From assembly GCF_000955905.1 (NCBI RefSeq), contig NZ_CP011097.1, positions 1 through 64,000 on the forward strand: 64,000 bases of DNA, in the 5' to 3' direction. Both the position numbers and the translations under genes were made by a program. The notes beneath the pieces were generated by a model. That model was not told the DNA's origin. It did not search any database and worked only from the letters and a program-made list of their open reading frames with translations. Shown piece by piece: positions 22,870 to 26,569 of this stretch (position 1 is its first letter; each line of letters begins with the position of its first letter). The DNA comes from Candidatus Nitrosotenuis cloacae. GTDB taxonomy: Archaea > Thermoproteota > Nitrososphaeria > Nitrososphaerales > Nitrosopumilaceae.

Positions 22870-23613
22870 TTATTTTATGGATTCGCCGCCATCAAGTGGC
22901 AAAATGGCGCCAGTAACCCAGGATGCATCTTCCTCTGATGCAAAATAAAGGGCAGCCTTTGCAACATCATTTACGGTTCCAAACCTGCCTATTGGATAGG
23001 CAAAATTCATCATGTCTCTAGTTGCCGGCGTTGATAAAAACTCGGATGTCATGCCGGTTTCGACGACGCCAGGACAAATACAGTTGACGCGAATCTTGCT
23101 TTTCGCATATTCCAAAGCCCAACACTTTGTTAGCAAAACCAAGGCTGCCTTTGATGCAGAATATGCATCCGCATTAAAATTCTCGTATGCCTTGATTCCA
23201 GCAGATGATGCGATATTGATTATTGCACCGCCGTTTTTTTGCAAATGTGGTATGGAATATTTTGTAGCATAAAATGCGCCATTGAGGTTTACATCCAATA
23301 CATCCCTCCATTCCGAATCAGAAATCTCATGGAGCAGCTTGATCTTGGGAAATACTCCTGCATTATTCACCAAAATGTCCAGCCTGCCAAATCTTTCAAT
23401 TGTCTTGTTTATGAGACTCTGAACATCAGACTCTTTTCTAATATCTGCCAAAACTCCAAATGCGTCAAGCTCTAATGTGGCCTTTTCCAGATTCGTCTTG
23501 TCCTTGCCGGAAATCACAATGCTTGCGCCATTAGCTGCAAACTCTTTTGCGATTGCCTTTCCAATTCCTCGGCTTCCACCAGTGATCAGTGCAATCTTTC
23601 CTGAAAGCTTCAT
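22870..23613 (-). CDS. SDR family oxidoreductase (FabG-like)
   Basis: The 247-residue classical SDR has the cofactor motif TGGSRGIGKAIAKEF at residues 11-25, NNAGVF, the catalytic Ser in NIASSAG, and YSASKAALVLL with intact Tyr and Lys. The C-terminus ILPLDGGESI is typical of FabG-like 3-oxoacyl reductases. The substrate is unknown. It reads toward the small membrane gene and cysQ. Confidence 0.9.
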   Translation of the reverse strand: MKLSGKIALITGGSRGIGKAIAKEFAANGASIVISGKDKTNLEKATLELDAFGVLADIRKESDVQSLINKTIERFGRLDILVNNAGVFPKIKLLHEISDSEWRDVLDVNLNGAFYATKYSIPHLQKNGGAIINIASSAGIKAYENFNADAYSASKAALVLLTKCWALEYAKSKIRVNCICPGVVETGMTSEFLSTPATRDMMNFAYPIGRFGTVNDVAKAALYFASEEDASWVTGAILPLDGGESIK

Positions 23614-23714
23614 TTCCTTTCCTGGAATGGTTCTGCTAATATCGTTGTTTGAAAAATATGTGCAAAAATTATTTCATTATATGTGGTATCATGATGTAAA
23701 AATTCATACTAATT

Positions 23715-23723
23715 CTTAAATAA
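23715..23723 (+). promoter_or_regulatory. TATA-like box for the candidate RNA at 23742
   Basis: CTTAAATAA lies about 26 bases before the proposed 5' end of the structured RNA. No protein frame starts downstream on this strand for at least 150 bases, which is why I link the box to an RNA gene. Confidence 0.4.
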
Positions 23724-23741
23724 CATAAATTCCTATATGAA

Positions 23742-23875
23742 ATGATGCGAAAGGACATAAATCCTATCGACTAAGGGGTGCGTGACCCAGTAGAACTAAT
23801 TTGTGTCCTGCAAGCGCATTGGCGCTATGGATAAGAGAGGTGTTCTCTCATGTTCTACGTCTGGGGTCACGCCGA
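23742..23875 (+). ncRNA. Candidate structured non-coding RNA, unclassified
   Basis: The 264-base gap between an SDR gene and a hypothetical gene contains a strongly paired stretch. GCGTGACCC (23780-23788) pairs with GGGTCACGC (23864-23872), and TAGAAC (23791-23796) with GTTCTA (23852-23857). Inside these, AGCGC/GCGCT (23813-23826) and GAGAG/CTCTC (23835-23849) form two hairpins, giving a junction. A further hairpin AGGA...TCCT lies near the 5' end. There is no tRNA T-loop, 5S, RNase P or SRP signature I can recognise. Ends are approximate. Confidence 0.5.
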
Positions 23876-23877
23876 AC

Positions 23878-24312
23878 CTATTTTATCAGATAAATCGAAA
23901 ACGGGCCCAAAACGTTTCCATGCGGGTTTATTGTTATTTGTAGTTCTTGATCATCTAGAATCTCTATTTTGTTTTGGCCCAAATACTCCCAGGTATAGTA
24001 TTTGCCAATGTCTCCATGTTCGGTTCCCTTTAGCTCAAACTCTTCTGAGAATGAAAATGTCGTACCGCTCAGTGAGACACCAAGTGTTTGCGGGCTGTCC
24101 CCATTTAGAACAAAACGAAACTCGTATTCTCCCTTTTTGATTGGAAATGTCTCTACAAAAATCCCGTCTGTGTATTGCTTTGGATCAGCTAGCCTTGCAT
24201 GGTAGATTTGCTCGCGCCCAGTGTTATCTGATGGCGCAGTCAAAATCAGGCCAAATACAACAACCAGAGGTGCCACCGTTAAAATCAAACCAATGAGATT
24301 TTTCTTTTTCAC
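23878..24312 (-). CDS. Membrane-anchored or secreted hypothetical protein
   Basis: The product has 144 residues from the GTG at 24312. It has a basic start (KKKNLIGLILTVAPL) and one N-terminal membrane helix, then an extracellular beta-rich domain (IKKGEYEFRFVLNGDSPQTLGV and later strands). The pattern suggests a small beta-sandwich. I do not recognise a family. An upstream frame extension to 24360 begins at a poor start and disrupts the signal. It lies 59 bases downstream of tfb on the same strand. Confidence 0.65.
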   Translation of the reverse strand: MKKKNLIGLILTVAPLVVVFGLILTAPSDNTGREQIYHARLADPKQYTDGIFVETFPIKKGEYEFRFVLNGDSPQTLGVSLSGTTFSFSEEFELKGTEHGDIGKYYTWEYLGQNKIEILDDQELQITINPHGNVLGPFSIYLIK

Positions 24313-24371
24313 AAATTCACCAAAATTACAATTCCTATTAAAATTTGCAAAAAACAACAAAAAGAGAGGTT

Positions 24372-25927: not shown

Positions 25928-26569
25928 ATGACAAACTTCCAGAACTCATGGTCCAAACCATCGACACCAAGTGTATCTGAAAAATTGGGCGACGTCCTCA
26001 AGCCAAAAGGCGCATTAAAGCCAAGAATTGAGCAGGCAGTAAAAGGCCTTCACAACCAAATCTCAAAGCTTGACGGAATGCTGACCAAACTAAAGCAAAG
26101 AGAGGAAAAACTGTTCCAAAGAATAGTTGCAGCAACCCAAAAACACGATACTCACACTAGCAAAGTTTTAGCAAACGAACTAGCCGAGGTCCGAAAGGTC
26201 TCAAAGATGCTAGGAAATTGCAGAATGGCACTAGAGCAAATCGAACTAAGACTAACGACATTCAGCGACCTAGGAGACACAGTAGTCACAATAGCACCAA
26301 CAATCGGCCTAATGAGAAGCCTCAAGTCTTCGCTTGGCAAGTTCATGCCAGAGGCAGACCACGAACTAGGTATGATGACCGAGATGCTAAATGGACTAAT
26401 GACAGAGTCCTTCTCAGGCGAGGGTGCGTTTGGCATGGATCAAACAACCAACGAAGAATCCGAAAGGATTCTAGAGGAAGCAGCAGCCGTTGCAGAGGCG
26501 TCAGTTGGGGACAGATTCCCATCAACGCCAGTCAGCGCAAAGTCCGCTACCTCGACAAGATACCTCTAA
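25928..26569 (+). CDS. cdvB: ESCRT-III/Snf7-like CdvB paralog
   Basis: This 213-residue protein has the basic helical hairpin of ESCRT-III: KPKGALKPRIEQAV at 27-40, long helices with KLDGMLTKLKQREEKLFQRIV, then ELAEVRKVSKMLGNCRMALEQIELRL. An acidic C-terminal tail has ESERILEEAAAVAE and GDRFPS. CdvB proteins assemble membrane-remodelling filaments in archaeal division. The winged helix of full-length CdvB is not obvious. A second paralog at 52395-53045 shares the same architecture. It lies upstream of a coiled-coil, winged-helix and membrane-regulator group. Confidence 0.9.
   Translation: MTNFQNSWSKPSTPSVSEKLGDVLKPKGALKPRIEQAVKGLHNQISKLDGMLTKLKQREEKLFQRIVAATQKHDTHTSKVLANELAEVRKVSKMLGNCRMALEQIELRLTTFSDLGDTVVTIAPTIGLMRSLKSSLGKFMPEADHELGMMTEMLNGLMTESFSGEGAFGMDQTTNEESERILEEAAAVAEASVGDRFPSTPVSAKSATSTRYL

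Follow-up and report, generated by a model that had tools for sequence, protein, structure and literature searches.

A structured non-coding RNA confined to one family of archaea, the Nitrosopumilaceae

The RNA gene and its secondary structure

Within the window, i.e. the whole stretch of 64,000 nucleotides of Candidatus Nitrosotenuis cloacae DNA that was analyzed, the gap at positions 23614-23877 separates a gene encoding an SDR dehydrogenase from a gene encoding a 160-aa protein. The first-pass annotation had placed an unassigned structured RNA in this gap (23742-23875), with two long-range stems and two internal hairpins that close a junction. Homologous sequences and covariation confirmed the RNA as a gene on the plus strand, and both stems and both hairpins were found at the places claimed for them and were supported by comparison (Table 1). 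It is almost certain that this is a stand-alone gene for a structured RNA. The window copy scored 136.6 bits (E = 3e-29) with covariance model R1, whose training set includes this copy, and 115.3 bits with the wider covariance model R2. Judging from the sequence, the probable transcript extends from about 23744 to 23885 (~130-140 nt).

Table 1. Features of the RNA locus (window coordinates)
Feature	Positions	Strand	Remarks
SDR dehydrogenase gene	22870-23613	-	divergent from the plus-strand RNA
Promoter AATTCTTAAATAA	23711-23723	+	BRE-like upstream bases plus TATA-like box
TATA-like box CTTAAATAA	23715-23723	+	same distance conserved among homologs
Promoter-proximal element TTCCTATA	23730-23737	+	about -14 to -7; conserved in the alignment of copies
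Structured non-coding RNA gene	23744-23873	+	covariance model R1/R2 positions 1-130
5′ hairpin P1/P1a	23748-23769	+	CGA.AGGA-loop-TCCT.TCG
P2	23780-23788 with 23864-23872	+	GCGTGACCC/GGGTCACGC; 97% of cells paired; double changes in 6/9 pairs
P3	23790-23796 with 23852-23858	+	GTAGAAC/GTTCTAC; 97.8% of cells paired; double changes in 6/7 pairs
P4, variable hairpin of the three-way junction	23804-23833	+	about 91% of cells paired; double changes in 8/8 pairs
P5 hairpin GAGAGGTGTTCTCTC	23835-23849	+	sequence-conserved; purine strand, G-NNN-U loop; 97.3% of cells paired
T-rich 3′ tail, likely terminator	23874-23885	+	at the stop codon of the convergent gene
160-aa gene	23878-24360	-	without Pfam match; convergent with the RNA; stop codon abuts the RNA 3′ end

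The RNA is composed of a 5′ hairpin domain and a long two-part stem (P2 and P3), which closes a three-way junction with P4 and P5. P2 and P3 are separated on the 3′ side by several unpaired nucleotides. The weakest helix is P1/P1a, with 73.5% of the cells paired in the wide alignment, and the outer P1 pairing differs between sub-types, being GCGGA/UCCGC in many type-B paralogs of Nitrosotenuis.

The structure was first written from 38 copies, and the pairs were then counted. In these copies 93.3% of the cells paired and double changes were observed in 17 of the 36 pairs, compared to 5.6 in shuffled alignments, while pairing fell to 35-47% when the partners were slid. A wider alignment of 66 members (A5) was fitted to the covariance model and for this reason leans towards the proposed structure; 91.5% of its cells paired, compensating double changes were present in 28 of the 36 pairs (shuffled mean 19), and there were 262 doubly changed cells compared to 66 in shuffles. 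The covariation score was 0.351, against 0.167 for shuffled data, and despite the fitting to the model, slid partners on the same alignment scored far lower (0.04-0.07). The first-pass annotation had staked its proposal on compensating changes among relatives, and these proved to be abundant in the 66 members. Outside P1, G-U cells outnumbered A-C cells (80 vs. 15; the members are related, so a formal p-value overstates the difference), which identifies the plus strand as the RNA strand.

The predicted folding energy of the plus strand was -48.9 kcal/mol, compared to a shuffled mean of -36.4 (z = -3.4), and was better than that of every dinucleotide shuffle. The minus strand folds even better (z = -5.6). 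Since the z value of the plus strand is modest and that of the minus strand exceeds it, folding energy alone is insufficient, and it is the comparative evidence that is decisive.

One part of the earlier proposal was not upheld. An extra pairing of GGACAT with GTGTCC, which would form a pseudoknot, is possible in the window sequence but is not kept among homologs: 73.5% of the cells pair, much of this being G-U, and the third pair fails in 21 of 35 sequences. This pairing would also disrupt the better supported 5′ hairpin.

The presence of a TATA-like box at the right distance upstream, suggested from the window sequence, was borne out by the conservation of its position among homologs. Among 78 copies, 50 have the TATA-like heptamer beginning 28 nt ahead of the RNA start, and conservation across the 78 extends to the bases directly upstream of the box and to a C-rich spot near -12. 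A search of the genome with the 27-nt extended promoter, allowing up to 3 mismatches, yielded two sites only, each located upstream of an RNA copy (two of the three copies). Past the RNA end, the fraction of T in the 78 copies rises to as much as 0.81 within 12 nt and is about 0.3 further on; this T-rich tail is likely a terminator. From these sequence features we infer that the RNA would be transcribed from its own TATA box, with transcription ending in the T-rich tail.

Distribution and paralogous copies

In a blastn search of 61 genomes, the RNA was found together with its promoter in 16 of 16 relatives from the genus, usually with a second copy. Of 400 genomes of the class, 200 were matched by model R1, and each of the 200 belonged to the Nitrosopumilaceae; model R2 matched 30 of 200 genomes from the phylum, and these 30 were likewise Nitrosopumilaceae without exception. 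Matching genomes mostly carry 1-4 copies. The RNA is specific to the family Nitrosopumilaceae and is present in nearly every genome of the family that was examined. Records containing the P5-P3 motif come from Nitrosotenuis, Nitrosarchaeum, Nitrosopumilus and thaumarchaeal bins, and strong copies were also identified in two bins labelled as Nitrososphaeraceae (L133 and L153), these labels being taken as given. When 24 genomes of sister families were searched with permissive filters, two weak matches only were obtained (E = 0.09 and 0.14). The sister-family match L239 has no clear TATA box at the expected place.

Genome scans with R1 and R2 gave no significant match in four genera (g5, g8, g11 and g14). 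In genus g11 the syntenic gap, located via the convergent protein, contains an RNA that has diverged but retains the two-domain architecture, its P5 sequence being GGGGGGCAAUCCCCC. Its recovery by synteny indicates that part of the apparent absence results from the sensitivity of the models.

The Nitrosopumilaceae, major ammonia oxidizers of both ocean and soil, rank with the most abundant archaea of the ocean. That nearly all of them carry a structured RNA missing from Rfam, in as many as four copies, indicates that a layer of their biology has gone unstudied. With the covariance model and the fixed loci, this RNA can be looked for directly in existing RNA-seq and metatranscriptome data.

The genome carries three copies of the RNA, two on the plus strand (23744-23873 and 874652-874784) and one on the minus strand (1313522-1313650). 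Copies of type A are located beside the gene of the 160-aa protein and in many genera also beside a TFIIB-type gene, such as the one present near the RNA locus in the window. The type B site in Nitrosotenuis lies between cluster c10 (tRNA-wybutosine-synthesis-like) and a CorA-like gene, and other types are found beside a PurP-like gene or, on the opposite strand, between aroC- and aroA-like genes (all of these genes were named by inspection). No neighbour is common to the different paralog sites. A tree built from 80 copies arranges them largely according to site (groups B, C, C2, D, E, F and G). Conserved but differing sites, together with this clustering, suggest that the RNA acts in trans and has been inherited vertically. 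The evidence thus shows a stand-alone gene for a structured RNA, strand-specific and passed on vertically, whose various sites have unrelated neighbours. The lack of a common neighbour and the clustering by site argue against a cis element, and clustering by fixed site argues for ancient duplication followed by vertical inheritance rather than mobility.

Several individual observations concern particular sites. The 160-aa protein is kept beside the RNA across the Nitrosopumilaceae, while the sister families gave one marginal match only (E = 0.009). Downstream of the RNA in the window there is a Snf7/CdvB-like (ESCRT-III) gene (25928-26569, plus strand), and a gene of the same cluster is found downstream in many other genera. 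The neighbours of the copy at 874652-874784 (positions 1653-1785 of locus L031) matched no other locus examined, and the 5′ hairpin of this copy is closed by AUGC/GCAU instead. Type D copies (L118 and L120-L128), which occupy the site between the aroC- and aroA-like genes in several genomes of the family, are without the P3 stem and have a different P5 (GAGGAG-AAUG-CUUUUC). A single tandem pair of RNA copies was seen, on one contig (L097, 1501-1618 and 1810-1926).

Relation to known RNA classes

A covariance search with the 4227 families of Rfam 15 gave no match to the RNA at gathering score, either in the window or in 20 diverse loci. At a relaxed threshold, the only match near the RNA was a chance one to sroH (11.5 bits). 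No report of this RNA was found in the openly licensed literature. Archaeal RNase P RNA (RF00373) and SRP RNA (RF01857) are likewise stand-alone structured RNAs of this genome, but the present RNA matches neither, and the single genome match of each lies elsewhere (1074413-1074693 and 121160-121470, respectively). ARAGORN made no tRNA or tmRNA call on the RNA, its one call, a tRNA-His, falling within the type-B copy's locus. These results agree with the initial impression that the RNA is not a tRNA, SRP RNA or RNase P RNA.

We regard it as a new family within a general kind of RNA that is already known, that of structured and, in this case, probably trans-acting ncRNAs, given its covarying structure, its own promoter and the unrelated neighbours of its paralogs. 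Two described ncRNAs share some of its features. The first is Tan1 of Candidatus Thalassoarchaea (marine group II), an RNA of 229 nt whose expression has been shown; it is also a lineage-restricted ncRNA of marine archaea with a proposed complex fold, and its function has likewise not been assigned (PMC5069720). However, Tan1, by its description, belongs to another archaeal lineage and differs in length. The second is Yfr103 of marine Synechococcus and Prochlorococcus, which is 290-328 nt long in Synechococcus CC9605 and has been shown to be expressed (PMC5069720). It resembles the present RNA in its several paralogs per genome, conserved structure and restriction to one lineage, but it is bacterial and longer.

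Possible mode of action

The P5 hairpin is near-invariant (GAGAGG-NNN-UCUCUC) and, in 17 genomes of the genus, essentially private to this RNA. Its strands are nearly fixed in sequence, while the pairs of P4 change freely. The RNA was also considered as a decoy of an mRNA hairpin, and this idea was rejected: in the 17 genomes the exact P5 hairpin occurs elsewhere only twice, in G004 and in G010, where it looks like coding DNA, and its near absence outside the RNA means that no mRNA partner hairpin was found.

The near fixation of P5, set against the freely covarying P4, and its privacy to this RNA suggest a protein partner. In the model that we propose, the conserved P5 purine hairpin with its G-NNN-U loop, the P1a loop and the A-rich junction strands would serve either in binding to a protein particular to the lineage or in tertiary contacts; P2, P3 and P4 would form a scaffold, and the paralogs would be isoforms produced from separate promoters. 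The molecule would act in trans, either as the RNA core of a ribonucleoprotein or as a decoy of one. Taken as a whole, the statement that this is a stand-alone Nitrosopumilaceae RNA acting in such a way is one whose truth we consider evenly balanced; P5 could instead owe its conservation to tertiary folding or to pairing with an mRNA. We put forward only tentatively the more far-reaching view that the RNA may be the core of a lineage-specific ribonucleoprotein, with paralogous isoforms, on which most Nitrosopumilaceae depend and which would rank like 6S RNA, with a different fold and partner.

The main rival to the ribonucleoprotein model is a trans-acting antisense sRNA, whose unpaired loops (the P1a loop, the junction strand after P3 and the P4 loop) would pair with mRNA leaders, with the structure merely protecting the molecule and the paralogs having different sets of targets. 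The occurrence of several paralogs in a genome, whose loops and junctions have diverged, and the RNA's own promoter are consistent with such a role, and trans-acting sRNAs that pair with mRNA exist in archaea, e.g. sRNA162 of Methanosarcina mazei, which acts on cis- and trans-encoded mRNAs (PMC3510493). However, the mRNA targets of sRNA162 are identified ones, whereas the present RNA is marked by strong structural constraint. In it, conservation is highest in the paired P2, P3 and P5 and not in a long unpaired seed, and the exposed parts are A-rich and short; we consider antisense action rather unlikely.

The near-universal occurrence in one family, the several copies and the conserved promoter would also fit an RNA analogous in function to a housekeeping one, which would bind RNA polymerase or the ribosome as do 6S or similar abundant RNAs. 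P5 contains a Shine-Dalgarno-like GAGG (the 3′ end of 16S rRNA is CACCUCCUU), but this motif is locked inside a stable stem, and the bases that extend it lack conservation. The RNA is also without an Rfam match, and a housekeeping analogue seems clearly improbable. The 5′ hairpin shares 10 nt (TCCTATCGAC) with 23S rRNA, but an identity of this length is about what chance would give, and it is absent from some sub-types.

In most genera checked, the end of the type-A RNA directly adjoins the convergent gene's stop codon, as would be expected if the structure were a shared terminator or 3′ UTR element of the 160-aa gene, or an antisense element of its neighbours, and the good folding of the minus strand points in the same direction. 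Such a cis element is nevertheless very doubtful, given that other paralogs lie beside unrelated genes, some of them co-directional, that the plus-strand promoter is kept at a fixed distance, and that the asymmetry of G-U and A-C cells favours the plus strand.

Guide RNAs for rRNA modification are numerous in archaea, and the size of the RNA would, from general knowledge, suit the H/ACA type. Among 82 members, however, box C was present near the 5′ end in 2 and box D near the 3′ end in 4, with no member carrying both, and ACA directly followed the stem in 4. Complementarity to 16S or 23S rRNA common to four genera was not detected among ungapped runs of at least 11 nt, a search that short bipartite guides could escape. 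A guide function has very little to recommend it. Finally, a mobile or repeated element, which the several copies per genome might suggest, or a chance fold can be set aside with hardly any reservation, the former being contradicted by copies at fixed syntenic sites that cluster by site and by the absence of the P5-P3 motif from viral contigs, and the latter by strong covariation.
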